The position numbers and the translations under genes were made by a program. Shown piece by piece: positions 6,898 to 54,407 of a stretch of DNA of 64,000 nt. The stretch is from Ramlibacter montanisoli. GTDB lineage: Bacteria; Pseudomonadota; Gammaproteobacteria; Burkholderiales; Burkholderiaceae_C. Below the pieces are notes generated by a model. The model searched no databases, was not told the origin of the DNA, and saw only the letters and a list, made by a program, of their open reading frames with translations. Where the stretch lies: positions 124,001-188,000 of the forward strand of contig NZ_JABFCS010000001.1 in the NCBI RefSeq assembly GCF_013087525.1, in the 5' to 3' direction. Positions within the stretch are counted from its first letter, which is position 1, and each line of letters opens with the position of its first letter.

Positions 6898-6953
6898 GCC
6901 GGACGCTCCACGGGCGCAAGCATGCGCCTGCCGGCGGCAAACGTCCACTTCGC

Positions 6954-6988
6954 CGATACGAAGGTATCGCTCGACACCATCGTCCAAT
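6954..6988. promoter_or_regulatory. recurrent regulatory motif, strong copy
   Basis: Lies between the divergent kinase (4945-6897) and secreted-protein (7081) genes. It contains CGATACGAAGGTATCG, a near-perfect palindrome, followed by ACACCATCGTCCAAT, a perfect half-site on the other strand (ATTGGACGATGGT). It therefore has the two-armed layout seen best at 9835-9873. Confidence 0.65.
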
Positions 6989-7080
6989 GTCGGGCAGGAA
7001 AAGCTCCTGACAGATTCGGCGGTGCGCTCCGGCGACATCGGCCGGGCGCCCCAGACCCCTTCCTCACCAGGAGCTACCGC

Positions 7081-7578
7081 ATGACCAGACTGCCATCGAT
7101 CCGCAGGCTCGCGGCCGCCGCCGCCGGCGCCTTGCTTGCCACGAGCCTCTCTGCCCAGAGCGCCAGGGACGTCACCGGACCTTCCGTGTACGTGCCCATC
7201 GCGAACGAACCCGCCCCGCGCCTGATCGTGGATCCGCCGCTGGCCGAGGGGCTGCCGCTGGGGGTGTTCTGGGCGCAGTACCGGGTGGAAAACCTGCGCA
7301 TCGTCCCGGTGTTCGGACCCGGCGCCGCGCAGACCTCGCCCCGCGTGGGCCATCTGCACATCACGGTCGACGACCTGCCGTGGTGGTGGGCGGATCCGAG
7401 CGGGACCAACACGATCGACATCGCCGGCTTCACGCCGGGCGAGCACAAGGTGAAGATCGAGCTGGTGGATCCCAACCACAACGTCTACCCCGGGCAGGTG
7501 GTGACGCTGACGTTCACCATCCCCGAGTACGACCGGGCCAAGGTGCATCCTCACGCGCCGCCGCTGCCGCGCAAGTGA
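7081..7578 (+). CDS. secreted protein resembling DUF6130
   Basis: About 165 aa with an N-terminal Sec signal peptide (RRLAAAAAGALLATSLSAQS). The mature part is a small beta-sandwich. RVGHLHITVDDLPWWWADPS and FTPGEHKVKIELVDPNHNVY are the recognisable segments, typical of periplasmic DUF6130/DUF4399-like proteins of unknown function. The C-terminal HPHAPPLPRK tail is His/Pro-rich. It is transcribed away from a sensor kinase and shares its intergenic regulatory motif, so it may be a target of that circuit. The DUF assignment is from memory of the pattern. Confidence 0.72.
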   Translation: MTRLPSIRRLAAAAAGALLATSLSAQSARDVTGPSVYVPIANEPAPRLIVDPPLAEGLPLGVFWAQYRVENLRIVPVFGPGAAQTSPRVGHLHITVDDLPWWWADPSGTNTIDIAGFTPGEHKVKIELVDPNHNVYPGQVVTLTFTIPEYDRAKVHPHAPPLPRK

Positions 7579-7607: not shown

Positions 7608-8988
7608 TCAAAGAGGCTTCAGGCGCTGCAGCAGCGTGGGGATCAGCTCGCTGATGGTCGGATGGATGGGGACGGTGGCGGCGATCGTGCGCACGTCCAC
7701 GCCGGCGGCCTGCACGTTCAGCAGGGAGTGGATCACCTCGTCGGCATCGATGCCGACCAGCGTGGCGCCCAGCAGCCGCATCGACCGGGCGTCGACCAGC
7801 ACCTTCATGAAGCCGCGGGTCTCCGAGCGCTCCCTGGCCCGGCCGACGTTCTTCATCGGCAGGAAGCCCACGAGCAGCTCGACGACGCGCGCGCGCCTGC
7901 TTCTCGGAGTCGCCGATGCGCGCCAGCGGCGGATCGACGTACAGGGCGTAGGGCGCGACCCGCCCGTCCACGCTGCGCTCCTGGCCGTCGAGGATGTTGG
8001 CGGCGACCACCTCGTAGTCGTTCCAGGCCGTGTGCGTGAAGGCCCCGCGCCCGTTCACGTCACCCAGCGCCCAGATGCCGGGGACGCCGGTGCGCAGCTG
8101 CCCGTCCACCCGGATGTAGCCTCGTTCGTCCAGGTCCACGCCGGCCTGGTCCAGCCCCAGGTCCCCGGTATTCGGCCGGCGCCCGGTGCCGAGCAGCACG
8201 TGCGTGGCTTCCACACGCCGGCGCGTGCCGCCCTGTTCGAAGGTAAGGGCAGCGCCGCCACCGGGCCCGTGTTCCACGCCCAGGCAGCAGGCTCCCAGCT
8301 CGAAGCGGATGCCTTCGTCGGCCAGCGCCGACTGCACCTCGGCCGCGGCCTCCGCGTCTTCCCGGGCCAGCAGCGCGTCGGCCTGCTCGATCACGGTGAC
8401 CTCGCTGCCGAAGCGCCGGAACACCTGCGCGAACTCCAGGCCGATGTAGCTGCCGCCGACGATCGCCAGGTGCGCGGGCCGCTCCTCCAGCGCGAGCAGG
8501 GTGTCGCTCGTGAGGTAGGGCACGCCCGAGTCCCGGGCCCAGTCGGGCACGACAGGGCGGCAGCCGACGTTGAGGAAGATCCTGGGCGCCTGCAGCAGCC
8601 GGCCACCGGCCTCCAGCGTGTCCGGCGCGGTGAAGCGCGCGTGCGCGCGCACCAGCGTGAGCCCCGCGGTTCCTTCCAGCCAGGCCGCGAGGCCGCGGCG
8701 GGACTGCGCGACGACCGCCTCCATGCGCGCGCGCACTTTCGCGAAATCGGTCGCCACGGTGCCGCTGATGCCGACGCCGAAGTCCGCCGCGCGGTGCACC
8801 AGGTGCGCGACGCGCGCGCTGGCGACCAGCGTCTTGGTCGGCGTGCAACCGGTGTTCACGCAGGTGCCGCCGAGCTCCGCGCGCTCGACGAGTGCCGTCC
8901 TGTGGCCCGCCTCGGCCAGCCTCGCGGCCAGCGCCGGTCCGGCCTGGCCTGCTCCGACGACGATGGCGTCCCAATGTTCGACGTTCAT
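7608..8988 (-). CDS. FAD/NAD(P) disulfide oxidoreductase, mercuric reductase-like (frame broken near 7900)
   Basis: About 460 aa when repaired. The N-terminal FAD fingerprint is AIVVGAGQAGPALAARL, followed by the redox-active pair GGTCVNTGCTPTK. The NAD(P)-binding motif is AIVGGSYIGLEFAQVF, and VPGIWALGDVNGRGAF is the second FAD motif. The C-terminal dimerisation domain (HPTISELIPTLLQ) lies in another frame from about 7900, where a GCGCGCGC run appears to have lost or gained a base. MerA-specific vicinal C-terminal cysteines and an N-terminal HMA domain are absent. It therefore fits the MerA-like/Lpd-like oxidoreductases whose substrate is unknown rather than a true mercuric reductase. Confidence 0.85.
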
Positions 8989-9557: not shown

Positions 9558-9782
9558 TCAATGGCCGCGCGGCTGGATGCGCTTGACCGGCGCGAGGAAT
9601 TCGCGGCCGACCGAGGCGCTCACGCGCTGGTAGTTCGAACGCGCCTGGTCGCTCAGCAGGGCGACCTGCACGTTGCCGTCGGCGTCGCAGGGGAAGGCGT
9701 AGCTGCGGCCGAAGCAGTAGAGGCCCTCGAAGCGCAGCTCGTAGCAGCCGGTGCGCGCGGACTCTTGCGATGGATGGCTCAT
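9558..9782 (-). CDS. small conserved hypothetical protein (74 aa)
   Basis: Start at 9782 chosen because GGAGACCGCC precedes it. The sequence CYELRFEGLYCFGRSYAFPC followed by DGNVQVALLSDQARSNYQR and VGREF matches a small Burkholderiales protein pattern I have seen repeatedly without a function. It is soluble, with no transmembrane helix. It is the first gene of a probable three-gene unit (9782 to 7608) whose promoter region carries the best copy of the recurrent regulatory motif. Confidence 0.7.
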   Translation of the reverse strand: MSHPSQESARTGCYELRFEGLYCFGRSYAFPCDADGNVQVALLSDQARSNYQRVSASVGREFLAPVKRIQPRGH

Positions 9783-9834
9783 GGCGGTCTCCGGGAGGTG
9801 GAGCACCCATCAGAGCAGGAGCGGCTGCGGCGGT

Positions 9835-9873
9835 CCATTGAACGATGGTCTCGCCGCTACCTTGGTGCAATGG
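9835..9873. promoter_or_regulatory. archetype of the recurrent motif: 39-bp dyad operator
   Basis: The whole 39 bp is an imperfect palindrome bounded by CCATTG and CAATGG. The left arm is ATTGAACGATGGT, and the right arm read on the other strand is ATTGCACCAAGGT. The arms are separated by about 9 bp (CTCGCCGCT). It lies 53 bp before the divergent gene at 9782 and 65 bp before the small ORF at 9938. It is the clearest definition of a motif found at many other promoters here. Confidence 0.75.
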
Positions 9874-10920: not shown

Positions 10921-11736
10921 CTAGTGGCGCCTGTCGCGGCGCGGAGGATCGGTGCGCAGCAGCCGGTGCAGCAGCTCCGGCCCCACGAGGTCCGCCAGCG
11001 TTGCGATGGCCACGTGCGGCAGCCAGGCGGCGGCCAGCTTGATGGCCAGCGGAATGCCGCCGACGCGCCGGCAGATCGCGATCGCGCCGCGCGTGTTCTC
11101 TCCGCTGAGGGCGAAGGTCGGCACGTGCCGCGCCGCCTCCTGCACGAACATTCGCACCGCGGGAAATTCCATCGCTGTCCGCGCGTCCAGCATGGCCGCA
11201 TCGGGCGGGAAGGCGAGGGGTGGGACAGCGAACGATGGCCCGTCCGGCGCATCGAGCATCCGCCCGGTGATCAGCACGTGCACGTCAGGGCGCACGCGCC
11301 GCAGCGTGCGCGCCACGCCGGCGATGCAGGCGGCATGGCGGTCGCAGTTGTCGATCAGCAGCAGCAGGCCGGCGAACTCCCCGGCGTGGTCCTCGGCCGC
11401 GGCGTGCGCCGGCCGTTGCGCCCGGATCGCAGCGGCGATCAGGGCACGCAGGTGCTCGCAGTCGAGGGCGCGCGCTGCATCGATCGCGCGGTAGCCGCCG
11501 CGGAAGGCGGGCGCGAGCTTCTGCGCGATGCGCAGCGCCAGCGCGCTCTTGCCCACGCCGGCCGTCCCGGTCACGTGCACCAGGCCGCTGTGCCGGACCT
11601 GGCCGGCCACTTCCGCGATCTCCTGTCCGCGGCCGACGAGCGCGGAGGAATGCCGGATGGTCGCGCCCGCAAAGGACGTCAGCGTGGCCGAGCCCTGGGG
11701 CTCGAGCGTCCAGGATGTTGCGGTGGTTGCGTGCAT
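10921..11736 (-). CDS. stand-alone STAND/NB-ARC-type ATPase
   Basis: About 271 aa. Walker A is VTGTAGVGKSALAL, Walker B is LLLLIDNCD, a sensor-like HVLITGR follows, and the GxP motif GIPLAIKLAAAWLPH closes the domain. This is the arrangement of STAND/NB-ARC ATPases. Such modules normally carry a winged-helix or LuxR effector domain and a repeat region for ligand sensing. Neither is present here, so the protein is either a truncated regulator or works with a partner. It lies downstream of a FixJ-type regulator on the same strand, separated by a 107-nt gap that holds a copy of the recurrent motif. Confidence 0.75.
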   Translation of the reverse strand: MHATTATSWTLEPQGSATLTSFAGATIRHSSALVGRGQEIAEVAGQVRHSGLVHVTGTAGVGKSALALRIAQKLAPAFRGGYRAIDAARALDCEHLRALIAAAIRAQRPAHAAAEDHAGEFAGLLLLIDNCDRHAACIAGVARTLRRVRPDVHVLITGRMLDAPDGPSFAVPPLAFPPDAAMLDARTAMEFPAVRMFVQEAARHVPTFALSGENTRGAIAICRRVGGIPLAIKLAAAWLPHVAIATLADLVGPELLHRLLRTDPPRRDRRH

Positions 11737-11787
11737 GGTGACCTCCTTGCGCAGGACCCATGAAACCGCAACACGCGCGCGCCCTCA

Positions 11788-11818
11788 ATTGACTGAAGGT
11801 GTCGCCGATACCAAGGAA
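11788..11818. promoter_or_regulatory. recurrent regulatory motif copy before the STAND ATPase gene
   Basis: ATTGACTGAAGGT, then GTCGC, then CGATACCAAGG, keeping the 18-bp offset between the two arms seen at other copies. It lies about 50 bp before the ATPase start (11736) and downstream of the FixJ-type gene ending at 11844. Confidence 0.6.
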
Positions 11819-11843
11819 CAGGGGAGGGCGGCCTGCGCGCGGC

Positions 11844-12476
11844 TCAGGCTTCGCCGGCGCCGGCGGAGCGCAGCTTCGCCGACATCTTCACCAGCTCGGC
11901 GAGCGAGCGGGCTTCCATCTTCTTCATGACGCGGCCGCGGTGCGCCTTCACCGTGATCTCGCTGATCCCGAGTTCGCCGCCCACCTGCTTGTTCAGGAGC
12001 CCGGAGACGACCAACGTCATCACCTGCCGCTCGCGCTGGCTGAGCGACGCGTGGCGTTCCCGCAGCGACCGCAGCGAGGTCTCCTCCTCCACTTCGACGT
12101 GGCTGCGTTCGACCGCCCGGCGGATCGCATCGAGCAGCACTTCCTCGTCGAAAGGCTTGGTCAGGAATTCCGCGGCCCCGGCCTTCATGGCGCGCACGGT
12201 CATCGGAATGTCGCCATAGCCGGTGAGGAAGATGATGGGCATGCCCGCGCCGTCGAGGGCGAGGCGCTCCTGCAGGTCCAGCCCGTTGAGGTCCGGCAGG
12301 TTGACGTCCAGCAGCAGGCAGCTGGCCGTGAGCGAGCGCGGGCGCGCGAGGAACTCCTGGGCACTGGAGAAGATCTCCGTCGCCCATCCCTCGGACTGGA
12401 TCAGCAGCTCCAGGGATTCGCGGACGGACACGTCGTCGTCCACGACGAAGATCGTGGGAAGGGTGCTGGACGTCAT
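11844..12476 (-). CDS. FixJ/NodW-type response regulator
   Basis: About 210 aa. The receiver begins [20 protein letters not shown] (acidic pocket). It carries the phospho-acceptor Asp in LLLDVNLPDLNG, the Thr in [12 protein letters not shown] and the Lys in FLTKPF. A LuxR-type helix-turn-helix follows (LSQRERQVMTLVVSGLLNKQ, then [20 protein letters not shown]). The start at 12476 is preceded by GTGAGG. It closely resembles the regulator at 18282-18941. No kinase is directly adjacent. A motif copy at 12569-12592 lies about 95 bp upstream, which suggests autoregulation. Confidence 0.93.
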   Translation of the reverse strand: MTSSTLPTIFVVDDDVSVRESLELLIQSEGWATEIFSSAQEFLARPRSLTASCLLLDVNLPDLNGLDLQERLALDGAGMPIIFLTGYGDIPMTVRAMKAGAAEFLTKPFDEEVLLDAIRRAVERSHVEVEEETSLRSLRERHASLSQRERQVMTLVVSGLLNKQVGGELGISEITVKAHRGRVMKKMEARSLAELVKMSAKLRSAGAGEA

Positions 12477-12568: not shown

Positions 12569-12592
12569 CGGTAAATCATACTTTGGTTGCGG
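12569..12592. promoter_or_regulatory. recurrent motif, one-armed copy upstream of FixJ-type gene
   Basis: CGGTAAATCATACTTTGGTT resembles the GGTAAAC-GATACCTTGGT arrangement of the copy at 32509-32541. It lies between the FixJ-type gene (minus) and the ExbB-like operon (plus). The second arm is not recognisable. Confidence 0.45.
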
Positions 12593-18177: not shown

Positions 18178-18215
18178 TCAATACCAAGGTGTCTGTTTAC
18201 GTGGCGGATCAATGG
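18178..18215. promoter_or_regulatory. recurrent regulatory motif between iorA and a FixJ-type gene
   Basis: AATACCAAGGTGTCTG, then TTTACGTGG, then ATCAATGGG. The outer CAATGG and the ACC-AA-GGT core are kept. It lies 67 bp before the FixJ-type start (18282) and in the divergent gap to iorA. The GTTTAC segment is shared with the copy at 32509-32541. Confidence 0.6.
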
Positions 18216-18281: not shown

Positions 18282-18941
18282 ATGAGGCATGAAGCTGCAG
18301 ACCAGGCCCGGACCGCCCCGGCCCAGGCCCTTCCCACGGTGTTCGTCGTGGACGACGACGTGTCCGTGCGGGAGGCGCTGGAGATGCTGATCCGCTCCGC
18401 CGGCTGGGAGGCGGAAACCTTCGCGTCCGCCGAGCATTTCCTGGCACGCCCGCGCCTGCTCGCCCCGAGTTGCCTGGTCCTCGACATGGCGATGCCCGGG
18501 GTCGGCGGACTGGAGCTGCAGCAGCGGCTGGCGGCGGAACGCACGGACTTGCCGATCATCTTCCTCACCGGCTATGGCGACGTGCCGCAGACGGTGCGGG
18601 CGATGAAGGCGGGCGCCAGGGAGTTCCTGACCAAGCCCTTCAGCCCCGACGTGATGCTGGCGGCGATCGCCAGCGCGCTGGAGCGCAGCCGCGCGGCCAT
18701 GCACGCGGAGGCGCACACCGGCGCGCTGCGCGCGCGCTACGAGTCACTGAGCCGGCGCGAGCGCGAGGTCATGGGGCTGGTGGTCACGGGCCTGCTGAAC
18801 AAGCAGGTGGCGGGGGAGCTCGGGATCAGCGAGATCACGGTGAAGGTGCATCGCGGCAGCGTGATGCGCAAGATGCAGGCGGGCTCGCTCGCTGAGCTGG
18901 TCACCATGGCCGCCGAACTGGGCATCCGGGGCTCGCCGTGA
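18282..18941 (+). CDS. FixJ/NodW-type response regulator
   Basis: About 219 aa. ATG 18282 follows GAGGAG. The receiver has [20 protein letters not shown], the phospho-acceptor in [22 protein letters not shown] and FLTKPFSP. The LuxR-type helix-turn-helix reads [20 protein letters not shown], then [19 protein letters not shown]. The recognition helix is nearly the same as in the 11844-12476 regulator (ITVKAHRG versus ITVKVHRG), so both probably read the same DNA site. The stop overlaps the start of the giant kinase (GTGA), making kinase and regulator a coupled pair. Confidence 0.94.
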
Positions 18942-21900
18942 GCGAACTCTCGCTGGACGACGCCGGCCACGATGACGATGCGTCCGGCGAGATGCTCTGG
19001 CAGGACGGCGAACGCGCGTTCTGCCGGATCTCGCGCCGCCTGGACACGGGCACCCGGCAGCTGTGCGTCGCGGTCGTCCCGGGCGGCGATCTCCCGCCCG
19101 CCGCGATGGTGCGGCGCCTGCGGCACGAGTTCGAGTTGCGCGAACACCTGGATGGTGCCTGGGCCCTGCGGCCGCTGGAACTGATTCCCGAGGGCGGCCG
19201 GGCCATCCTGGTGCTGGAGGATCATGGCGGCGAGCCGCTCGAGCGCCTGCTCGGCGCGCCGATGGAACTGGGGCGCTTCCTCAGGGTCGCGATCGCGATC
19301 ACCGAGGCCCTGGGCCAGCTGCACGGGCGCGGCCTGGTCCACAAGGACATGAAGCCGGGCAACGTGTTCGTGGACGCGGCCGATCGCGTTCGGCTCACGG
19401 GCTTCGGCATCGCCTCGCGCCTGCCGCGCGAACGCCAGGCACCGGAGCCGCCGGAGGTCATCGCCGGCACGCTGGCCTACATGGCACCGGAGCAGACCGG
19501 ACGCATGAACCGCTCCATCGACACGCGCAGCGACCTCTACTCCCTCGGCGTCACCTTCTACCAGATGCTCACCGGCACGCTGCCCTTCAGCGCGTCGGAT
19601 CCCATGGGCTGGGTCCATTGCCACATCGCCAAGCGCCCGGTTCCGCCCGCGGAGCGCGCGTGGATGCCCGCGGCGGTCTCGCACATCGTGCTGAAGCTGC
19701 TGGCCAAGACGGCGGAGGACCGCTACCAGACGACCGCCGGCGTCGCGGCCGACCTGAAGCGCTGCCGCGCGCTGCTGGAGGCGACCGGCGCCGTGCCGGC
19801 CTTTCCTCTCGGCACGCACGACGTGCCCGACGCGCTGCGCATCCCGGAGAAGCTCTACGGGCGCGAGGCGGAAGTGGCGGCCCTGCTCGCGGCGTTCGAA
19901 CGCGTCATCGCGCACGGCACGCCGGAACTGGTGCTCGTGCGCGGCTACTCCGGCGTGGGCAAGTCCTCGGTGGTGAGCGAGCTGCACAAGGCGATCGTGC
20001 AGCGCCGGGGCCTGTTCGCCTCCGGCAAGTTCGAGCAGTACCGGCGCGACGTGCCCTACGCCACGGTGGCGCAGGCCTTCCGCTCGCTGATGCGCCAGCT
20101 GCTCGCCCGCAGCGAACCGGAACTCGCGCGCTGGCGGCAGTCGCTGACCGAGGCGCTGGCCGGCCAGGGCGAGCTGATGGTGCGCATCATCCCGGAACTC
20201 GAGCTCCTGGTCGGCGCGCAGCCCACCGTGCCCGAGCTGCCGCCGCAGGACGCGCAGGCCCGCTTCCAGCGGGTGTTCCGCCGGCTGGTCGGCGTGTTCG
20301 CGCGTCCCGAGCATCCGCTGGTGCTGTTCCTGGACGACCTGCAATGGCTGGACGCGGCGACGCTGACGCTGCTGGCCGACCTGGCCACCCACTCGGAGGT
20401 GCACGACCTCCTGCTCGTGGGCGCCTACCGCGACAACGAGGTGGATGCCTCCCACCCGCTGATGCGCAGCCTGGAGGCGATCCGTGCTGCCGGCGCGTCG
20501 GTCGGCGAGATCGTGCTGGCGCCGCTGGCGCTGCACGACGTGGGCGCACTGATCGCCGATTCGCTCCATTGCGACGTGGACGGCGCCCGTCACCTGACCC
20601 GCCTGGTGCATGAAAAGACGGGAGGCAATCCCTTCTTCGCCATCCAGTTCCTCGGCGCGCTCGGCGAGGAGAAGCTGCTGGCCTACGACGCCGGGGCTGC
20701 GGCCTGGGTGGCGGACCTCGCGCGCATCCACGCCAAGGGCTATACCGACAACGTGGTCGACCTGATGGTGGGCAAGCTGGCCCGGCTGCCGGGCGCGACC
20801 TGCGAAGGGCTCAAGCAGCTCGCCTGCCTGGGAAGCGTCGCGCGCTTCGGCACCCTCGAGCGCATCTTCGGGCAATCGGCGGACGCGGTCCATGCCTCGC
20901 TGTGGGACGCGGTGCGCGACGGGCTGCTGCTGCGAACCGGGGAGGGCTATGCGTTCGTGCACGACCGGGTGCAGGAGGCGGCGTACTCGCTGGTCGACCC
21001 GCACCACCGGCCGGCCGTCCACCTGAGCCTGGCGCGCGCCCTGCTGCGGGACATGCATCCGGACGAAGTCATCGACGTCGTCGACCAGTTCAACCGGGGC
21101 GCAGCGTTGCTGGTCGACCCGCAGGAGCGCGAGCGCATCGCGCAGCTCGACCTGCTGGCGGGACGCAGGGCGAAGTCGTCGGCCGCCTATGCGTCGGCCG
21201 CCACCTACTTCGCCGCCGGCATGCGCCTGCTTCCGGACGACGCGTGGAGCAGGCGCTACGAGCTTGCGTTCGGCCTGTGGCTGGAACGCGCCGAGTGCGA
21301 GCACCTGGGCGGAAACCTCGATGCGGCCGAGCCGATCATCTGCGGGCTCTTGTCGCACTGCGCCTCCAAGGCGGACAGGGCAGCGGCCTATCGCCTGAAG
21401 ATCGACCTGCACGTGATGAAGGGCGAGAACGCCAAGGCGATCGACAGCGCGGTGGCATGCCTGGGGCTGCTGGGCATCGAGATCTGCGCGCACCCCACGC
21501 GGGCCCAGGTGGAGACCGAGCTCGCGAAGGTATGGCGCAACCTCGGGGACCGCCCGATCGAAAGCCTGGCCGGACTCCCGCCGATGACGGACCCGGAAAA
21601 GCAGGCGGCCATGCTGGTGCTGTCGGTGATCTACGCGCCCGCCTATTTCACCGACCGCAACCTGCTGCACCTGCACATGTGCCACATGGTCAACCTGACG
21701 CTGGAGCACGGCACGAGCGAGGCTTCGGCGGCAGGCTATGCCTGCTTCGGCGTCACCGTCGGCCCCAACTTCGGCCGCTATGCCGACGGCTACCGCTTCT
21801 GCAGGCTCGCCTGCGACATGGTGGAGCGGCCGGAGCTCGCGGGCTACCGGCCCAAGGTCTACGTCTCCACGGAGATGGCCTTCCTGTGGACCCAGCCGGT

Positions 21901-24468
21901 CGGCACCGCGCTGCACTACGTGCAGGCGGCCCAGCGGGCCGCCATCGAGGCCGGCGACCCGGCCATCGGCTGCTACGCCGCCACCCACATCGTGACGGAC
22001 CTGCTGCTGCGCGGGGACCACCTCGACGACGTGCTGCGCGAGAGCGAGCGCGGCGTGGAATTCGCGCGCAAGGCGAACTTCCGCGACATCGTCGACGTGA
22101 TCCGCGGCCAGCAGCAGTTCGTGCAGGACATGCGCGGGCGCACGGCCCACTTTTCCACCTTCAGCGGCGCGGGGTTCGACGAGACCGCCTTCGAGGCGGC
22201 CCTCACGCCGGACCGCATGGCCACCATGATGTGCTTCTACTGGCTCCTGAAGCTGCAGGCGCGCTTCCTGTCCGGCGACCTCGACGCGGCGCTGGACGCG
22301 GCGGCCAGGGCGAAGGCGCTCCTGTGGTCGGCTGACGGGCACATCCAGCTGGTGGACTACCACTTCCACACCGCGCTCACGATCGCCGCGGGCTGCCGGG
22401 CGCCCTCCGGGGCGCGGCCGGAAGCGTCCGAAACGCTGGCCGCGCACCTGGCGCAGCTCGCTCAATGGGTGGACAACGGTGCCGCCAGCTTCAGGGACCG
22501 CCATGCGCTGCTGCAGGCCGAGGCCGCCCGCGTGGCGGGCCGCGACCTGGACGCGCAGCGCCTGTACGAGCAGGCGATCCGGCTCGCGCGGCAGGACCGC
22601 TTCATCCACAACGAGGCGCTCGCCAGCGAACTCGCCGGTCGCTTCTATGCGGACCGGGGATTCGAGGAGATCGCTGCGCTCTACCTGAAGAAGGCCCGCG
22701 GCTGCTACCTGCGGTGGGGAGCCGCCGGCAAGGTGCGGCAACTCGACGAAGCGCACCCCGGGCTGCGGGACGAGGAAGCGGCAGCCGCCGCGACGGGCAC
22801 GATCGGCGCGCCCGTGGAGCACCTCGACCTGGCCACCGTGCTCAAGGTCTCGCAGGCGGTCTCGGGCGAGATCGTGCTGGAGAAGATGCTCGAGACGCTG
22901 ATGCTCACCGCCATCGAACATGCCGGCGCCGAGCGCGGGGTGCTGACGCTGGCGGTGGCCGGCGAGCAGCGGGTCGCGGCGGAGGCCACGACCACCGGCG
23001 ACCGCGTCGCCGTGCAATTGCGCGACCAGGCGCTCGCCGAGGCGGCCGTGCCGCAATCCGTGTTCCTCTACGTCCTGCGCACGCAGGAAGCCGTGGTGCT
23101 CGATGACGCGGTGGCGCACGGTCCGTTTTCCGGCGACCCCTACATCGTGGAACGCCGCACGCGCTCCGTCCTGTGCCTGCCTCTGCTCAAGCAGGGCAAG
23201 GTGACCGGGGTGCTGTACCTCGAGAACAACCTGGCGGCGCGCGCCTTCGCGCCCAGCCGCCTGGCCACGCTGAAGCTGCTGGCGTCCGAAGCGGCCATGT
23301 CGCTGGAGAATTCGCGCCTGTACCGTGACCTCGCCGTGCGCGAAGCGCGGATCCGGCGCCTGGTGGAGGCCAACATCATCGGCATCTTCATCTGGGACAC
23401 CAGGGGCCGCGTGCTCGATGCCAACGATGCGTTCCTGCGCATGGTCGGCTACGACCGGGAGGACCTGGTCTCCCGGCGCCTGCGCTGGACCGAGCTCACG
23501 CCGCCGGAATGGCGCGAGCAGGATGAACAGCACGCGCCGGCGCTGAAGGTCGCCGGCAGCCTGCAGCCCTACGAGAAGGAGTACTTCCGGAAGGACGGCA
23601 GCCGCGTGCCGGTGCTGATCGGCGCGGCGATGTACGAGGAGGCCAGCGACGAGGGCGTGGCCTTCGTGCTCGATCTCAGCGAGCGCAAGCGCGCCGAGCA
23701 CGAGGCGCGCCGCAGCGAACGCCGCCTGCACGAGATGCAGATGCGCCTGGTGGACGCCAACCGCATCGCCACCGCCGGGCACCTGTCCGCCGCGATCGCG
23801 CATGAGCTCAACCAGCCGCTGGCCGGCATGGTGACCAACGCCAGCACCTGCCTGCGGCGGCTGGCGGCCGATCCACCCAACGTCGAAGGCGCGAGCGAAA
23901 CGGCACGGCGCATGATCCGCGACGCCAACCGCGCGTCCGACGTCATCCAGCGCCTGCGCGCGCTGTTCGGCAACAAGGAAACGGCGGCCGAATGGCTGGA
24001 CCTGAACGAAGCCGCGCAGGAGGTGATCGCGCTGTCGTCGGCGGCGCTGCAGAAGGATCGGGTGTCCGTGCACTGCGAGCTGGCCGAGGACCTGCCGCCG
24101 GTGCGCGGCGACCGCGTGCAGCTGCAGCAGGTGATCATGAACCTGTTGCGCAATGCGGGGACGCGATGCGGGACGTGGACGAACGATCCCGGCGCGTGGC
24201 GATCCGCACCCGCCGCGACGACGGCGACTGCGTGCGCCTGACGGTTCAGGACGCCGGCGTCGGGCTGGACGCCGGCAGCGCGGAGCGGCTGTTCGAGGCG
24301 TTCTACACGACCAAGAGCGCGGGCATGGGGATCGGCCTGTCGGTCAGCCGCTCCATCATCGAGCGCCACCACGGGCGGCTCTGGGCGGAACCGAACGAGG
24401 GTCCGGGCGCGAGTTTTTCCTTTTCCATCCCGCGTGAACCGGCGGCCCGCGCCGCGCCGGACGGCTGA
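18938..24468 (+). CDS. giant Ser/Thr kinase - STAND ATPase - GAF - PAS - histidine kinase (frame broken near 24157)
   Basis: About 1,843 aa when repaired. Domains in order: protein kinase (residues 20-285; catalytic loop [17 protein letters not shown] motif in [13 protein letters not shown]; the Mg-binding DFG is GFG); ATPase (Walker [15 protein letters not shown] near 345, Walker [13 protein letters not shown] near 470); helical TPR-like region (600-1300); GAF (about 1310-1450); PAS (about 1470-1590); HisKA with [12 protein letters not shown]; HATPase_c with [12 protein letters not shown]. The N and G boxes are split by one missing base near 24157 (NAG to DAM). The GTG start overlaps the FixJ-type stop. 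This matches the trifunctional Ser/Thr kinase/ATPase/histidine kinase class. The ligand is unknown. Confidence 0.9.
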
Positions 24469-26872: not shown

Positions 26873-26887
26873 CCATTGCACCTTCGT
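26873..26887. promoter_or_regulatory. recurrent motif half-site before the MEDS-kinase operon
   Basis: CCATTGCACCTTCGT, with the outer CCATTG fully conserved. It sits in the 92-nt gap between the ABC ATPase gene end (26912) and the MEDS gene start (26819). Only one arm is clear. Confidence 0.55.
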
Positions 26888-28647: not shown

Positions 28648-28780
28648 GTCGTCTCCTGCGGGCGTCGACGTGGCCATCCGGTGCCAACGGCGCGCGTGAC
28701 TGGTAAGGCCGAGCACGGGGCCCTTTGCCCGCGTAGACCGCATGGGTGCTCGCGTCCTACACTGTCCCGGCCAATGCCAT

Positions 28781-32508: not shown

Positions 32509-32541
32509 CGATACCAAGGTATCGTTTACCCCGTCGCCAAT
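32509..32541. promoter_or_regulatory. recurrent regulatory motif, palindromic copy before lone receiver gene
   Basis: CGATACCAAGGTATCG has 7-bp perfect arms around AA, followed by TTTACCCCGTCGCCAAT as the weaker second arm. It ends 38 bp before ATG 32580. Confidence 0.65.
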
Positions 32542-32579: not shown

Positions 32580-32981
32580 ATGCAAAGTGAGCGCGGCGGT
32601 GCCGCCGCAGGCCGACAGCGCCCGCTGGTGTGCGTCGTGGACGACGACGAGTCCGTGCGCGAGGCCTTGCCGGACCTGCTCGGCGAGTTTGGCTACGCGT
32701 CCCTCGCTTTCGCATCCGCCGAGGAATTCCTGGCTTCCGACCGGATCCGCGACGCCGATTGCCTGATCCTCGATGTCGCCATGCCCGGCATGACCGGGCC
32801 CGAACTGCACCTGGAACTGAAGCGGCGCGGCCATGCCACGCCCGCGATCTTCATCACCGCCCACACCGATCCTGCCCTGTTTCCGCGGCTGATCGAGCAA
32901 GGGGCGGTGGAATGCCTGTTCAAGCCCTTCAGCGACGTCGCGCTGCGCGACGCGGTGGTCACTGCGCTGGCGACGAATTAG
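32580..32981 (+). CDS. stand-alone response-regulator receiver protein
   Basis: About 133 aa, receiver domain only. VCVVDDDESVREALPDLLGE, the phospho-acceptor Asp in LILDVAMPGMTG, IFITAHTD and LFKPFSD are all present. It belongs to the same FixJ-like receiver lineage as the two full regulators here but stops before any DNA-binding domain, with a hairpin directly behind. It probably serves as a phosphate sink or relay (FixT/CheY-like) for the neighbouring kinases. ATG 32580 is preferred over GTG 32577 because the G-rich site AGGGGGCG lies at the right distance. Confidence 0.88.
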   Translation: MQSERGGAAAGRQRPLVCVVDDDESVREALPDLLGEFGYASLAFASAEEFLASDRIRDADCLILDVAMPGMTGPELHLELKRRGHATPAIFITAHTDPALFPRLIEQGAVECLFKPFSDVALRDAVVTALATN

Positions 32982-33031: not shown

Positions 33032-33679
33032 TCACTCGGGCAGGGGCCGGCCGGCCTGCTCGGCCACCATGAATTCGGCATACCAGTCGGGCCACTCGTC
33101 ATCGTGCGCGCCAACCTTTTCCTCGTGCGCGTGGTGCGCCGCTGCCGCCCGCCGCAGGGTGGCGGCGAGGTCGCTGGCTGATCCGAAGCGGGTCTCGTCG
33201 CCGTCGAGACGGCCGGGCAGGCGCGCGGTGATCTCCTGCATCAGCCAGCTGTTTCCGTCGGGGTCCTTGAAAGTGGCATAGGTGGCGTAGGGCCGCCGCT
33301 GCGGATCGCGGCCGGCCGCGGGCGGATCGCCCGGCGTCAGGTGGAACACTTCGCTGACCTCGGCGCCGCAGGCGATGAGATGCTCGCGTGCCGCGTCGAT
33401 GTCGGACACCGCCAGGAACAGGCCGTGCGCCGATCCGGGGGCGGCGGAGGTGATGCCCTTGCCGAAATGCAGCGAGCACGCGGAGCCGGGCGGCGTGAAC
33501 TGGATGGCGCGGAAGGCATCGCCGCGGTCGAAGTCGGCGTCGAGCCGCCAGCCCAGGCCGGCGTAGAAGCGCTTGGCACGCTCGACGTCGGACACCGGGA
33601 TGGTGATGACTTCCAGCTTCATGTCGACTTTCCGACGGGTCTCGGCGAGCGCCTTGCTGCGCTCCAGGGTGCTGCTCAT
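33032..33679 (-). CDS. VOC (glyoxalase/bleomycin resistance) family protein
   Basis: About 215 aa. LEVITIPVSDVERAKRFYAG opens the first beta-alpha-beta-beta-beta module and ATFKDPDGNSWLMQEITARL closes the second. The C-terminal 55 residues are a helical extension (DWYAEFMVAEQAGR) common in a subgroup annotated as VOC proteins. Substrate unknown. ATG 33679 is preceded by AAGGAGCAAGAC. An internal ATG (MKLEVIT, 33622) is possible. It diverges from the first epoxide hydrolase, and the shared gap holds two copies of the recurrent motif. Confidence 0.85.
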   Translation of the reverse strand: MSSTLERSKALAETRRKVDMKLEVITIPVSDVERAKRFYAGLGWRLDADFDRGDAFRAIQFTPPGSACSLHFGKGITSAAPGSAHGLFLAVSDIDAAREHLIACGAEVSEVFHLTPGDPPAAGRDPQRRPYATYATFKDPDGNSWLMQEITARLPGRLDGDETRFGSASDLAATLRRAAAAHHAHEEKVGAHDDEWPDWYAEFMVAEQAGRPLPE

Positions 33680-33756: not shown

Positions 33757-33771
33757 CAATTGAACCAAGGT
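33757..33771. promoter_or_regulatory. recurrent motif half-site (VOC side)
   Basis: CAATTGAACCAAGGT matches the half-site ATTGNACSWWGGT at every position. It lies 78 bp before the VOC gene start and 43 bp from the next copy. Confidence 0.6.
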
Positions 33772-33813
33772 AGGGCGAACGGCAGTGCGCCACCCCCGAC
33801 GCATGCGGGGGTC

Positions 33814-33845
33814 CCACCAAGGTCTGCCCGACACCATCGTGCAAT
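33814..33845. promoter_or_regulatory. recurrent regulatory motif (epoxide hydrolase side)
   Basis: CCACCAAGGTCTGCCCG, then ACACCATCGTGCAAT; the second arm is a perfect half-site on the minus strand (ATTGCACGATGGT). It lies about 100 bp before the epoxide hydrolase start at 33947. Confidence 0.65.
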
Positions 33846-33946
33846 CGACCCACGCCGGGGCCGCGTGGTGTCATCGCCGCCGCTGCCCCAGGGATTGCGC
33901 ATCGCGCGGCCCCCATCCTCCCGCACCCCACCAGGACCCGCCCCAC

Positions 33947-35263
33947 ATGACTTTCCTGAACCCGAACGACGAAACGCTTTCGCCGGCATTGCGCAGGCGA
34001 GTCTTCCTTGCGGCGTCGGCAGCGGCGCTTTCCGCCAGCCCGCTGCTCACCGCCGCCGCTGCGCCTGTCGCCCGCGATTCCGCCGCCCACCCCGCCATCC
34101 GGCCGTACAAGGTGATCGTTCCCCGCTCCAGCCTGGTCGACCTGCGCCGGCGAATCGCGGCCACCAAGTGGCCCGAGCAGGAGACGGTGGCGGACCACAC
34201 GCAGGGCGTGCCGCTCGCCACCATGCGCAAGCTCGCGCACTACTGGGAGAAGGACCACGACTGGCGCAAGTGCCAGGCGAAGCTCAACGCGCTGCCGCAG
34301 TTCATCACCGAGATCGACGGGCTGGACATCCACTTCATCCACGTGCGCTCCAAGCATGCCAACGCGCTGCCCGTGATCGTCACGCACGGCTGGCCCGGCT
34401 CGATCATCGAGCAGCTGAAGATCATCGAGCCGCTGACGAATCCCACCGCCCACGGCGGCCGCGCCGAGGACGCCTTCCACGTGGTGATCCCCTCGCTGCC
34501 CGGGTACGGCTTCTCGGGCAAGCCGGCGAGCACCGGCTGGGGGCCCGAGCGCATCGCCGACGCGTGGATCACGCTCATGAACCGCCTGGGCTACCCGCGC
34601 TACGTGGCCCAGGGCGGCGACTGGGGCCAGCTGGTGACGGAGCTGATGGCGGTGAAGGCGCCGCCCGCGCTGGCCGGCATCCACACCAACATGCCGGGAG
34701 CCGTGCCGCCCGAGGTCGCGCAGGCGCTGCACCAGCGGCAGCCCGCGCCCGCGACCCTGACCGCCGACGAGAAGCGCGCCTGGGACCAGCTCGATTTCTT
34801 CTTCCGCAAGGGCCTCGCGTACGCGCAGGAGATGAGCAATCGCCCGCAGACGCTGTACGGCATCGCGGATTCGCCGGTCGGCCTCGCGTCCTGGATCCTC
34901 GACCACGATGCGGCCAGCCTCGCGCTGATCGCGCGCGTCTTCGACGGCCAGCCCGAGGGCCTCACGCGCGACGACATCCTCGACAACATCACGCTCTACT
35001 GGCTCACGGGCACGGGCGTGTCCTCCGCGCGCCTGTACTGGGAGAACAGGTTCACCTTCTTCGCGCCGCAGGGCATCCGCATTCCCGTGGCCGTGAGCGC
35101 CTTTCCCGAGGAGCTCTATACGGCGCCCCGCAGCTGGGCGGAGCGCGCGTACCCGAATCTCATCCACTACAACCGCCTGGACAGGGGCGGCCACTTCGCG
35201 GCGTGGGAACAGCCGCAGCTGTTCGCGCAGGAGCTGCGCGCCGCCTTCCGCTCGCTGCACTGA
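33947..35263 (+). CDS. Tat-exported epoxide hydrolase (copy 1)
   Basis: About 438 aa, uninterrupted. A twin-arginine signal (RRRVFLAASAAALSASPLL) is followed by the EHN domain (RPYKVIVPRSSLVDLRRRIA) and an alpha/beta hydrolase fold. The oxyanion motif is THGWPGSIIEQL, the nucleophile Asp is in AQGGDWGQLV, and the catalytic His is in [12 protein letters not shown]. The lid tyrosines are in the NITLYWLTGTG region. Such enzymes open epoxides to diols; natural substrates of the bacterial Tat-exported group are unknown. It is the first of two tandem paralogues with a third at 52067. The gene is likely controlled from the motif-bearing gap upstream. Confidence 0.92.
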   Translation: MTFLNPNDETLSPALRRRVFLAASAAALSASPLLTAAAAPVARDSAAHPAIRPYKVIVPRSSLVDLRRRIAATKWPEQETVADHTQGVPLATMRKLAHYWEKDHDWRKCQAKLNALPQFITEIDGLDIHFIHVRSKHANALPVIVTHGWPGSIIEQLKIIEPLTNPTAHGGRAEDAFHVVIPSLPGYGFSGKPASTGWGPERIADAWITLMNRLGYPRYVAQGGDWGQLVTELMAVKAPPALAGIHTNMPGAVPPEVAQALHQRQPAPATLTADEKRAWDQLDFFFRKGLAYAQEMSNRPQTLYGIADSPVGLASWILDHDAASLALIARVFDGQPEGLTRDDILDNITLYWLTGTGVSSARLYWENRFTFFAPQGIRIPVAVSAFPEELYTAPRSWAERAYPNLIHYNRLDRGGHFAAWEQPQLFAQELRAAFRSLH

Positions 35264-39302: not shown

Positions 39303-39452
39303 ATGCGCAAGCCAGGATCCTTGATCGTCTTGCTCGTCCTGCTCGTCCTCGCCGGGTGCGCCGCGAGCCCTCCGAGCTACCCCGGCTCCTCGCACTGCGC
39401 CACCCGGCCCGGCAGCTACCAGTGCCAGATCGAGCAGTACATGCGGGTCTAG
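39303..39452 (+). CDS. small lipoprotein (49 aa)
   Basis: ATG 39303. A lipoprotein signal (SLIVLLVLLVLAGCAASPPS) has a clear LAGC lipobox. The mature part is only about 30 residues and has two further cysteines (SHCATRPGSYQCQIEQY). It probably sits in the outer membrane or periplasm; function unknown. The Shine-Dalgarno sequence is weak. The stop interlocks with the LuxR-type gene stop in a CTAG tetranucleotide (39449-39452). Confidence 0.65.
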   Translation: MRKPGSLIVLLVLLVLAGCAASPPSYPGSSHCATRPGSYQCQIEQYMRV

Positions 39453-40147
39453 GACGCGACGAACTGCAGGGAGCGCTCGGGCCCTGCGGCATGGGAGGAA
39501 CGCGGCGCGGGAGCACTGGCGACGCCTTCCTCGACCAGCCCGCGGGCGGCCGCGATCCGCGCCGCATGCGTGCGCGAAGTGGCGCCCAGCTTGGCCATGA
39601 TCGCGCTCATGTGCGACTTGACCGTGCCCAGCTCGATGCGCAGCTGTCGCGCGATGGCCTTGTTCGGCTGGCCGTGGGCGACCAGGTTCAGCACCTCGAT
39701 CTCGCGCGAGGTGAGCGTCGCGCGCGTCAGGCTGTCCGCCATCCGGCGGGCCACCGACATGTTCATGTAGCGCATGCCGTTGGCCACGGCAGCCACGCCG
39801 TCGATCAGCTCGTTGAGGGGCTGCCGACGAGCAGGTAGCCGTGCACGCCGGCCTCGATCGCACGGCGGATGTCCGCTTCCCGGTCGTTGGCCGTCAGCGC
39901 GAGGATCCGGGCCTCGCCCAGGAAGCCGCGGGCTTCGGCGCCCGCCGCCTCGGCCCAGGCGCAGGGCGTCGGCATAGTCCGCGATCACGACGTCGACCGG
40001 CGGGCCGTCGCCCCCGAGGTTGTCCACCCCGTGCACGAAGACTTCGAACAGGGGACGCTGGCGCAGCGCGGCGACGAGGCCGGCGGACAGGAGCGGGTCC
40101 GCGTGCATGACCAGGACGTTGGATCGGGGCGGGGGAAGGTGGTTCAT
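39449..40147 (-). CDS. NarL/LuxR-type response regulator (two compensating frame breaks)
   Basis: About 232 aa. The N-terminal receiver-like part reads NVLVMHADPLLSAGLVAALR and VDVVIADYADALRLG. The C-terminal helix-turn-helix reads LTSREIEVLNLVAHGQPNKA, then LRIELGTVKSHMSAIMAKLG. Residues between about 39965 and 39825 are out of frame. The neighbouring frame gives the expected receiver segment (ILALTANDREADIRRAIEAG), so two indels cancel each other. NarL-type regulators of this kind are usually paired with a kinase; the divergent kinase at 40457 is the obvious partner. A copy of the recurrent motif lies about 100 bp upstream. Confidence 0.85.
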   Translation of the reverse strand: MNHLPPPRSNVLVMHADPLLSAGLVAALRQRPLFEVFVHGVDNLGGDGPPVDVVIADYADALRLGRGGGRRSPRLPGRGPDPRADGQRPGSGHPPCDRGRRARLPARRQPLNELIDGVAAVANGMRYMNMSVARRMADSLTRATLTSREIEVLNLVAHGQPNKAIARQLRIELGTVKSHMSAIMAKLGATSRTHAARIAAARGLVEEGVASAPAPRSSHAAGPERSLQFVAS

Positions 40148-40245
40148 TCGGTTCTCCAGCTGGTGTGGCCTGTGCGGTGGATGCGCCGCGGTCCTGCCAG
40201 GGCCGCGGTCGACACCGTGAGTTCACGACAAGCGGGCCGTTCGAA

Positions 40246-40277
40246 CCATTAGACGTTGGTAGCGGCTATACCAAAGG
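40246..40277. promoter_or_regulatory. recurrent regulatory motif in the LuxR/kinase divergent gap
   Basis: CCATTAGACGTTGGT, then AGCGGC, then TATACCAAAGG. It is in the 309-nt gap between the LuxR-type gene (start 40147) and the kinase (start 40457). I see no other structure in that gap apart from G+C-rich filler. Confidence 0.55.
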
Positions 40278-40456
40278 AGGGCGCGCAGGGGACCCCGCGC
40301 CACCGGGTCGCGGCCCCGCTGAACGGACTGCACACGAGCGTCCGGTCGACTGAACCTGGGCTGACGGCGAACCCCCGCCGCTTGCGAAAAGCGGATGGCG
40401 GACGCGCAAAGTGGATGGTCCGGCCGTGGGTATCGCCGACCATGGCGCGCTGACCC

Positions 40457-43333: not shown

Positions 43334-43393
43334 GAGGGGCTCCTGGCGGCAGGTGGTGGATGCCCTCATGAAAGCAGACGCGGGCCGGGGATT

Positions 43394-43430
43394 CCATTGC
43401 ACGTTGGTCTCGCCGATACCTTCGTTTCGG
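43394..43430. promoter_or_regulatory. recurrent regulatory motif between small ORF and SDR gene
   Basis: CCATTGCACGTTGGTCTCG, then CCGATACCTTCGTTTCGG. The left arm is a perfect half-site (ATTGCACGTTGGT) and the right arm keeps ACCTTCGT. It lies 119 bp before the SDR start (43549). Confidence 0.65.
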
Positions 43431-43548
43431 TGCCGGCGCCGCCCTGCCCATCCGTCCAATGGCCGGTCCCGCCCTGTGTCTCAGGCGGCATGCCGAGGCG
43501 GCGGTTGCTGGCGATAGTGCTGGGCTGTCCAACCGAAAGGCCCACCCC

Positions 43549-50445: not shown

Positions 50446-50694
50446 ATGCCTGCCGCCTACCACCCCGTCAGCTGCGAATTCCACGATGTCCTCGAGGCCC
50501 TCGCGACCACGCGGCGGCGGACGCAGATCCGCTTCAACGGAAGCGATGGCCTCCCACAGCAGCGCGACGCGGTGATCCAGGACGTCTTCAGCCGCGAGGG
50601 CGCCGAGTACATCGTGATCAGCTCCGGCGAGACCTTGCGCCTCGACCAGCTGGTGGCGGTCGATGGCGCGCAAGCGGCGCAGGCCGCGCGCTAG
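50446..50694 (+). CDS. Rho-binding antiterminator (Rof/YaeO-like) domain
   Basis: About 82 aa. YHPVSCEFHDVLEALATTRR followed by GAEYIVISSGETLRLDQLVA is the small beta-barrel of Rof/YaeO, which binds Rho and blocks its RNA-binding site. ATG 50446 has a strong ribosome site (AGGAGAAGCG), which argues for an independent product, although it is in frame with the GNAT upstream. Its TAG stop touches a half-site of the recurrent motif. Confidence 0.75.
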   Translation: MPAAYHPVSCEFHDVLEALATTRRRTQIRFNGSDGLPQQRDAVIQDVFSREGAEYIVISSGETLRLDQLVAVDGAQAAQAAR

Positions 50695-50711
50695 ACACCA
50701 TCGTCCAATTG
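50695..50711. promoter_or_regulatory. recurrent motif half-site before the DUF4148 pair
   Basis: ACACCATCGTCCAATTG starts one base after the Rof-like stop. On the minus strand it reads ATTGGACGATGGT, identical to the arm at 6954-6988. It lies 77 bp before ATG 50788. The second arm is not visible. Confidence 0.55.
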
Positions 50712-50787: not shown

Positions 50788-51168
50788 ATGAACCGCACCA
50801 CCGCCATCGTCGCCGCCGCACTGGTCACCCTGTCCGGCGCCGCCTCCGCCAACACCGGGCTCGCCGGCGACATCACGATCGAGACCCGGCCCTTCACGTC
50901 CAGCCGCGCCCCCGACGAAGTCCGCGAGGAACTCCGCGCCTTCAAGAAGTCGGGAGTGAACCCCTGGTCCCGCAGCTACAACCCGCTCCTGCACTTCATG
51001 AGCCTCCAGACGCGCGCGCAGGTCACCGCCGAATACACCGCCAATCGCGAAGCCGTCGCGGAATTCAACGGCGAGGACAGCGGCTCCATGTACCTGGCCG
51101 AGACCGCCGCCGCGGCGCGCCGGGCCGCCCGCATGGCTGGCGCGCAGCGCGACCCCAGCCAGCAGTGA
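50788..51168 (+). CDS. secreted DUF4148-like protein
   Basis: About 126 aa. Signal peptide NRTTAIVAAALVTLSGAASA; AAAAGGAACTCGC supplies the ribosome site. The mature part has RAPDEVREELRAFKKSGVNP, then LQTRAQVTAEYTANREAVAE, and ends in an Ala/Arg-rich helix, a degenerate two-unit DUF4148 arrangement. Function unknown. It forms a pair with the next gene. Confidence 0.72.
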   Translation: MNRTTAIVAAALVTLSGAASANTGLAGDITIETRPFTSSRAPDEVREELRAFKKSGVNPWSRSYNPLLHFMSLQTRAQVTAEYTANREAVAEFNGEDSGSMYLAETAAAARRAARMAGAQRDPSQQ

Positions 51169-52066: not shown

Positions 52067-54319
<2,253 letters not shown>

Positions 54320-54333
54320 GTGCAGCGCCATCC

Positions 54334-54351
54334 TGCACCTTGGTGCAATGG
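54334..54351. promoter_or_regulatory. recurrent motif half-site before an SDR gene
   Basis: TGCACCTTGGTGCAATGG. On the minus strand it reads ATTGCACCAAGGT, identical to the right arm of the 9835-9873 archetype, and the following GACC.CGCGCC also matches there. It lies 57 bp before ATG 54408. A short direct repeat (TTCAGGCCTG, twice) follows. Confidence 0.6.
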
Positions 54352-54407
54352 ACCCGCGCCGACCCTTCAGGCCTGATGCACCCTTTCAGGCCTGCAAGGA
54401 GACAAGC

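Follow-up and report, generated by a model that had tools for sequence, protein, structure and literature searches.

An oriented two-core promoter motif in Ramlibacter montanisoli, apparently the conserved operator of an undescribed regulon linked to a StyR/FixJ-like response regulator

Genes and intergenic sites of the locus

The window analyzed here is the whole stretch of 64,000 nucleotides at C1:124001-188000 of the 4.75-Mb Ramlibacter montanisoli genome (two contigs). It encodes a pair of paralogous response regulators, a giant sensor kinase, a receiver-only regulator and a LuxR-type protein, interspersed with genes for predicted enzymes and small proteins, and carries in its gaps copies of a motif that falls into two classes (Table 1). 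The class-1 sites and their proximal halves point at genes coding for a DUF6130 protein, an 82-aa protein (9558-9806), an AAA ATPase, a MEDS protein, a glyoxalase-like protein, an epoxide hydrolase, the LuxR-type protein, a DUF4148 protein and short-chain dehydrogenases (SDRs). Left of the window, further sites precede genes for an alpha/beta hydrolase (C1:96422) and a small protein (C1:102012-102278), with weaker matches before an MFS transporter (C1:114791-116101) and an HlyD-type protein (C1:118282).

Several genes of the window appear to be split or to change frame (7608-8988, 26912-28677, 28865-29826, 35301-36655, 52067-53379 and 53382-54319). They include those for a reductase (7608-8988) and a sugar ABC transporter, two genes resembling epoxide hydrolases and one that by eye resembles thioredoxin reductase; either the assembly contains indel errors or the block may be decaying. 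Outside the window, one open frame joins methionine sulfoxide reductase and old-yellow-enzyme domains (L033:11080-12525, C1:111080-112525).

Table 1. Sites, regulators and recurrent target genes in the window (window coordinates; R1, profile built from sites of other genomes)
Feature	Position	Strand	Remarks
Class-1 site upstream of DUF6130 gene 7081-7578	6951..6989	+	R1 39.2 bits, E=2.1e-9 whole genome
DUF6130 protein gene with signal-like leader	7081..7578	+	Pfam on 7084-7578; start codon from frame
Two-way class-1 site	9835..9873	.	39-bp dyad; cores 9842-9849 and 9859-9866; CAATGG both sides
Class-1 site upstream of AAA-ATPase gene 10921-11736	11786..11823	-	R1 22 bits over 11795-11823; -10 GGTTTCAT
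StyR/FixJ-like response regulator, KAHRG recognition helix, proposed binder	11844..12476	-	Response_reg + GerE; co-occurrence, linkage
Class-2 element (one core + TTTAC) upstream of response regulator gene 11844-12476	12571..12587	-	1 mismatch to ACCWWRGTATNGTTTAC
Class-2 element with one extra base, upstream of response regulator gene 18282	18181..18200	+	1 mismatch to extra-base variant
Paralogous response regulator, KVHRG	18282..18941	+	63% identity to 11844; overlaps kinase gene start
Sensor kinase	18938..24241	+	Pfam Ser/Thr kinase + AAA_16 + GAF + PAS + HisKA; 4-bp overlap with 18282
Proximal half upstream of MEDS-domain gene 26199-26819	26873..26887	-	Pattern, 1 mismatch; R1 no match
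Class-2 element upstream of receiver-only gene 32628-32981	32511..32529	+	0 mismatches
Receiver-only response regulator	32628..32981	+	Pfam Response_reg alone
Glyoxalase/VOC protein, recurrent target	33032..33679	-	Pfam
Proximal half upstream of glyoxalase-like gene 33032-33679	33757..33772	-	Exact half-site; R1 only 6.6 bits, E=1.4; -10 TGATTTCAT
Class-1 site upstream of epoxide hydrolase gene 33947-35263	33814..33848	+	R1 21.3 bits; kept before orthologues
Epoxide hydrolase, recurrent target	33947..35263	+	Pfam EHN + Abhydrolase_1; twin-arginine-like leader by eye
LuxR-type (GerE) protein, recurrent target	39449..40147	-	Pfam
Class-1 site upstream of LuxR-type gene 39449-40147	40245..40281	-	R1 14.6 bits; 8/8 orthologues, own included
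Class-1 site, stronger reading -, weaker reading + towards SDR 43549-44286	43393..43431	-	R1 38.2 bits on -, 16 on +
Proximal half upstream of DUF4148 gene 50788-51168	50694..50711	+	R1 14.5 bits; exact half-site
Proximal half upstream of SDR 54408-55130	54336..54352	+	R1 14.6 bits; exact half-site

Recurrence of the motif and its confinement to gaps

The motif recurs well beyond chance, as the original prediction had claimed: the pattern ATTGNACSWWGGT matches the window exactly eight times, as against a maximum of 0 (mean 0.00) in 100 dinucleotide shuffles, and ACCWWSGTNCAATNG with at most one mismatch matches 10 times, as against a mean of 0.07 and a largest count of 1 in the shuffles. Across the own genome at the same tolerance there are 47 half-sites versus 17 for the reversed pattern, and 10 of the 11 exact half-sites fall within C1:96318-178349 (the remaining one is at 4299543). 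Between 60 and 228 kb of C1, all 13 class-1 half-sites with at most one mismatch lie between 96.3 and 178.4 kb. A strict pattern, with equal cores and a gap of 17 bases, has no match in the own genome.

A position weight matrix built from the copies and scanned across the genome had been proposed as a check. The version trained only on the window sites collapsed onto five of them and was replaced by a profile from other genomes. To avoid circularity, a stricter pattern was searched across a collection of 84,980 species genomes, and it matched 36 stretches as against approximately 15 expected by chance (our own rough arithmetic with equal base frequencies); these come from Variovorax, Ramlibacter, Rhizobium, Mesorhizobium, Bradyrhizobium, Phenylobacterium, Rhodanobacter, Dyella, Acidobacteria and others. 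Seven of the stretches were set aside as likely chance matches (L062, L075, L079, L086, L090, L092 and L094) and two as duplicates of the congener G001 (L067 and L084). The resulting profile, R1, comprises 48 sites (54 half-sites minus six without a distal core) from the loci judged genuine and from G001, with none from the own genome. When R1 is run against the latter, with 150 of 2514 candidates scored, its 11 best matches (7 places, strands counted apart) all lie in C1:96301-167431, and 16 (11 places) of the 21 matches at E<=10 lie in C1:96301-178352; the other 5 (4 places) are elsewhere, with a best E-value of 0.095.

The claim that every copy is intergenic also holds for the 14 sites tested (10 in the window and 4 to its left): all their midpoints are in gaps, although by our corrected gene map gaps make up a fraction of just 0.165 of the sequence at 96-180 kb and 0.126 of the window; these sites are thus not found equally often inside genes. 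This required correction of a false gene call at 6954, which a naive gene call had placed inside a 1347-aa ORF; codon-frame scoring and the Pfam DUF6130 domain show this ORF to span a histidine kinase on the minus strand, the site itself and one plus strand gene. The list of 14 copies originally drawn up for the window stands in part. Ten of these are oriented sites, either with both parts or with the proximal half alone, whereas those at 12569, 18178 and 32509 represent a second element (see below). The copy at 3684 was rejected: it has the core, but lacks the CAATGG element and is absent among the R1 profile matches. Taken together, these observations confirm that the motif is real.

Anatomy of the class-1 site and its promoter

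The class-1 site is asymmetric and oriented towards its promoter, with its elements ordered as follows from the distal end: a distal core ACCWWGGTATCG, a spacer, a proximal core ACCWWSGT, one base and CAATGGA; the core consensus is ATACCWWGGTAT(CG) together with CAATGG. The proximal core lies 17-18 bp from the distal one, the spacer between the cores being 9 bases in 51 of 96 sites and 10 in another 15, with no clear distal core in the remaining 30. Downstream, at a fixed distance and outside the R1 profile, is an extended -10 of the form TGnTnTnAT, the last T of which is present in 56/71 and 72/96 sites (overlapping sets). The class-1 promoters combine a good extended -10 with no recognizable -35. 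The center of the proximal core is 31.5 bp before the -10-like hexamer, which places it at about -43.5; if TGnTnTnAT is the -10, the proximal core would be near -43.5 and the distal one near -60.5 or -61.5. Relative to the predicted start site, the arrangement has the features of a class II activator layout, i.e., a position near -41.5 that overlaps the -35 region at a fixed distance to the -10, and the predicted layout of the oriented site is that of an activator centered near -43.5 and -60.5.

The copy at 9835-9873, first noticed as a 39-bp dyad bounded by CCATTG and CAATGG, is indeed such a dyad, with CAATGG and an extended -10 in both directions (TGGTGTCAT on the plus and TGCTCTGAT on the minus strand), exact pattern matches, and R1 scores of 28.6 bits on the minus and 21.2 bits on the plus strand. 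For the site at 43393-43431, the nearest called gene in the direction of the strongest reading is approximately 460 bp away on the minus strand, and a small gene or RNA may have been missed there.

Retention of the site at orthologous promoters

Counted with the own genome included and one mismatch allowed, the site precedes 10 of 11 epoxide hydrolase orthologues, 8/8 of those of the LuxR-type protein 39449, 5/7 of the glyoxalase-like gene and 2/4 of SDR 43549, shares that are biased upwards because many of the loci were chosen through the motif. It is mostly missing before the orthologues of other genes, viz., TlpA-type (2/9), RidA (1/6), PDH-E1-like (0/5) and cupin (0/4) genes. The expectation under which the motif would fail, namely copies unconserved at the orthologous promoters of relatives, is thus contradicted. 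No class-1 site occurs before the FixJ-like genes in 18 orthologue rows (one gene counted twice); on rhizobial plasmids, by contrast, a site precedes such a gene in four loci or more (L184, L185, L192 and L193).

The annotated neighbors in the rhizobial plasmid loci include epoxide hydrolase, SDR, VOC protein, RidA, FMN reductase and aldehyde dehydrogenase; in five plasmid loci (L182, L183, L184, L188 and L193) a site is located approximately 200 bp or less upstream of one or more annotated epoxide hydrolases. A neighbor in L182 is annotated as a 'trifunctional serine/threonine-protein kinase/ATP-binding protein/sensor histidine kinase'. The recurrent predicted targets are the epoxide hydrolase, the glyoxalase-like protein, short-chain dehydrogenases and the LuxR-type protein. 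The initial proposal of an operator of a dedicated regulator, defining a regulon of redox, detoxification and signaling genes, is supported by this conservation and by the comparative evidence presented below.

A one-core element upstream of regulator genes

The second element, class 2 (ACCWWRGTATNGTTTAC), has a single core, with GTTTAC replacing CAATGG. In the window it precedes both response regulator genes and the receiver-only gene (Table 1). It is found before 10 of 17 genes for the receiver-only regulator at no more than two mismatches and before 12/17 at no more than three, a level at which some class-1 sites score too. It also precedes a giant kinase gene in G294, a genome of the family. 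By eye, its core apparently keeps the same register to a weak downstream hexamer.

The regulators and the sensor kinase of the block

Both 11844-12476 and 18282-18941 have receiver and GerE domains above the Pfam cut-offs, as expected of the NarL/FixJ class. The pairing of the latter with the kinase at 18938 is suggested by gene overlap and domain composition, with phosphotransfer as a prediction. A second kinase/AAA gene akin to the giant sensor is seen at L033:6487-7961 (C1:106487-107961), with Pkinase and AAA_16 in separate called frames.

The sequence KAHRG in the recognition helix sets the motif-linked regulators apart: it is present in 14 of 15 distinct ones with at least 60% identity (a G294 gene listed twice, also under L175, being counted once) versus 1 of 20 unlinked rows, and again in 4/4 linked regulators of a second set of loci and in 13/13 plasmid loci. 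Two regulators of lower identity differ, viz., one of G001 (C500, 57% identity, KVHRR), located on a 'linked' contig, and a second one of G289 (50%, QIHRG). The KVHRG helix of 18282 is also seen in several unlinked proteins. The binder is most likely the 11844-12476 regulator, possibly together with its paralogue 18282, on the strength of co-occurrence and linkage (see below), although the data do not discriminate between the two regulators of the block.

Co-occurrence of the motif with the regulator subfamily

In a sample of 399 genomes of the family, R1 matches at E<=0.001 are found in all five genomes with a relative of 11844 of at least 60% identity (own, G236, G289, G294 and G295) versus 1 of the other 394, the sole exception, G202, being marginal (9.7e-4). 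In the phylum sample of 398 genomes, the motif is present in 4/5 genomes with such a relative (own, G541, G634 and G548) versus 3/393 others, with G561 a strong exception and G610 and G686 marginal ones. The Fisher probabilities of 7e-11 (family) and 1.7e-7 (phylum) treat the genomes as independent, though they are related and the own genome is in both samples. In G801, the fifth phylum genome, the only site found is weaker (15.7 bits) and lies immediately beyond the gene for the regulator. The strong site of G561 (E=2.5e-8) is at C1:900540-900575 of that genome (L177:8540-8575), which has no regulator relative at E<=1e-55. The motif is missing from all 28 genomes whose listed relatives at E<=1e-55 are no closer than 47-57% in identity, and the loci around the 53-55% FixJ relatives in G019, G033, G013 and G040, as well as that in G068, show only scattered partial matches. 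Absences in these samples are soft because stricter scoring filters were applied and few protein candidates (7) were taken per genome.

Beyond co-occurrence, the regulator is physically linked to the motif, being located among the sites or within approximately 4 kb of them in G294, G295, G236, G289, G541, G548 and G634. A complementary set of plasmid loci was picked by the protein alone (13 of 21 records examined), and 11 of these 13 contain a site (best E per locus <=3.3e-5). The two others, L189 (Paraburkholderia) and L190 (Cupriavidus EM10), have no R1 match within 20 kb, though both regulators have KAHRG; L189 has two one-mismatch pattern matches and L190 none (NZ_CP076061.1 382072-402674, a Cupriavidus plasmid with a regulator of 67% identity). 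Sites from Variovorax and rhizobia form part of the R1 training set, although none of its training sites recurs in the 33 test loci (13 plasmid and 20 others) or in the window. The earlier suggestion of the FixJ-type proteins at 11844 and 18282 as candidate binders thereby gains support, as the motif both accompanies the subfamily of 11844 and lies close to its genes.

Relationship to known systems

The closest solved relative of both regulators is 1yio (E=1.2e-58 for 11844 and 4.6e-59 for 18282), a chain that we take to be StyR, and by this measure they resemble the StyS/StyR and TodS/TodT systems of styrene and toluene catabolism. However, StyR and TodT serve one catabolic operon, whereas the predicted targets here constitute a detoxification set. 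FixJ of rhizobia shares the domain layout, and 5xso is the second-best solved relative, but both regulators score below the cut-off of the NCBIfam FixJ equivalog NF006900 (216.3 and 212.1 bits versus 255). The dormancy regulon of DosR/DevR also combines a palindromic box and a NarL/FixJ-type dimer with stress control of multiple promoters; its box differs from the window motif, and DevR (3c3w) is merely a distant relative (51 bits). In terms of outputs, there is an overlap with the NemR/RclR-type responses to electrophiles and hypochlorite, which involve a different regulator class: genes for old yellow enzyme, MsrA, OsmC, glyoxalase and carboxymuconolactone decarboxylase are present in the region, and those for old yellow enzyme/MsrA, OsmC and carboxymuconolactone decarboxylase are without an assigned site.

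StyR itself, in the excerpted account of PMC2442086, activates from the STY2 site at about -40 from the start and binds cooperatively with a second site, which is linked there to repression; by analogy, StyR at STY2 and its second site is the nearest working model for the two-core site. The StyR box given in the excerpt of PMC5874301, ATAAACN4GTTTAT, is a palindrome of a size similar to that of the window core, but the sequence itself is not matched here, where the box ATACCWWGGTAT is followed by CAATGG and accompanied by a second core. The DNA-contact residues named in the same excerpt, K175, V176 and H179, align with K, A and G in 11844 and with K, V and G in 18282 (numbering inferred by us). 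The change of two of these three residues in 11844 would be in keeping with a different box. PMC12124856, as excerpted, concerns another, different NarL/FixJ system. The original prediction knew of no description of the motif, and we likewise found none of either motif or regulon in the openly licensed literature; apparently, it is the conserved operator of an undescribed regulon.

A proposed mechanism and its alternatives

With the motif, its orientation, the fixed -10-like distance, the block concentration, the orthologous promoters, and the co-occurrence and linkage of the regulator established computationally, we consider it probable that the motif serves a two-component regulon as its oriented operator-promoter, with the StyR/FixJ-like regulator as a class II activator. 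We propose that a phosphorylated dimer of 11844-12476 (possibly also of 18282-18941) would bind the core ACCWWSGT that abuts CAATGG, near -43.5, with a second dimer on the distal core 17-18 bp upstream, near -60.5, and that both would recruit RNA polymerase to promoters without a -35 and with an extended -10, in the manner of class II activation. Sensing would likely fall to the Ser/Thr-kinase/AAA/GAF/PAS/histidine-kinase protein whose gene directly follows 18282, perhaps along with the other PAS kinases of the block. The outputs would be detoxification enzymes, i.e., the epoxide hydrolase, the glyoxalase-like protein and the short-chain dehydrogenases, whereas the LuxR-type protein 39449-40147 may form a second tier, and several regulator genes would be under the one-core variant with GTTTAC replacing CAATGG. 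From the kinds of enzymes, we would guess that the signal is reactive electrophiles or oxidants.

The regulatory sign cannot be read off the sequence, and the same sites and regulator might instead act in repression, with promoter-adjacent binding blocking the polymerase until the signal arrives. StyR does act as a repressor from some sites (PMC2442086, as excerpted), but STY2, at approximately -40, is its activating site in that account, and the lack of a recognizable -35 together with an extended -10 at a fixed distance from the proximal core is an activator-dependent layout; we therefore regard repression as improbable. Less probable still is that another regulator of the block is the binder, with the FixJ-like proteins as passengers. 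The foremost candidate is the LuxR-type protein 39449-40147, the orthologues of which occur within several motif loci with a site in front of 8/8 of them. However, its matches at E<=1e-15 are confined to Variovorax and Ramlibacter loci (5/36) and there are none at E<=1e-10 in five 20-kb loci (no proof of absence, because the stretches are short), whereas FixJ-like proteins are also found in rhizobial and acidobacterial motif loci. Thus, 39449 looks like a target. The orientation of the motif and its fixed distance to the -10 would also suit a promoter part for an alternative sigma factor rather than an operator, but this is very unlikely given its dyad structure, the presence of another core 17-18 bp further upstream, the both-direction layout at 9835 and a -10 that resembles the extended housekeeping form; moreover, there is no sigma factor among the 40 window proteins scanned, the weak Sigma70_r4_2 matches being GerE domains. 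Finally, the crowding of the copies in one block might point to a dispersed mobile repeat that landed in gaps by chance, but this has a negligible likelihood and is contradicted by the comparison of 200-bp flanks, in which the similarity is centered on the site and promoter (23-94 bp; two matches of 20 and 26 bp are exceptions), and by the retention of the site at orthologous promoters across other genera and phyla.

An accessory chromosomal block

Rather than being spread genome-wide, the class-1 sites cluster in a single block of about 82 kb on the chromosome, and the two-core pattern is present in only 1 of 58 sampled congeners. Just before the first site, after a seryl-tRNA-synthetase-like gene, is a tRNA-Ser(CGA) at C1:95455-95544 (L032:15455-15544). 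Gene order in the congener G027 matches up to this tRNA and seems to resume at the genes of C1:203148-207905 (which have a paralogue in the block), and therefore approximately 107 kb, including the whole site block, lack a counterpart there (60 kb compared at >55% identity, with the proteins of C1:60-228 kb as queries; two genes do have matches, both located at that same end). In G013, G039 and G009, with 40-60 kb compared in each, serS is likewise not followed by any stretch of matching genes. The block thus displays the tRNA boundary and the variable content in relatives typical of genomic islands; neither an exact repeat of the tRNA end of at least 14 nt within 60-228 kb, as for att sites, nor a PF00589 match to a tyrosine integrase between 95 and 203 kb was found.

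Biological implications

The combination of the switch, the detoxification genes and a co-travelling regulator family in distant bacteria makes a shared stress response probable, and the motif most likely marks such a response, which is apparently undescribed. More tentatively, and at somewhat less than even likelihood, these genes may constitute a self-contained, horizontally spreading stress module of soil Proteobacteria and Acidobacteria, in which a Ser/Thr-kinase/AAA/histidine-kinase sensor is coupled to a dedicated regulator of the StyR type whose recognition helix hardly varies, and one operator would be tiered by promoter class, with two cores and CAATGG for the detoxification outputs and one core and GTTTAC for the signaling genes. 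Given the concentration of the sites in one block, the module and its operators would move together.

These findings connect a recurrent cluster of detoxification genes with a subfamily of regulators, an operator and a promoter layout. On the examined plasmids, the parts of this cluster bear no annotation beyond 'response regulator', 'epoxide hydrolase' or hypothetical protein. The regulon can now be proposed from sequence wherever the regulator is found, and its signal would be testable with a single reporter. As regulator and operator are apparently matched across phyla, the system also offers a case for how the recognition helices of the FixJ/StyR type specify DNA.
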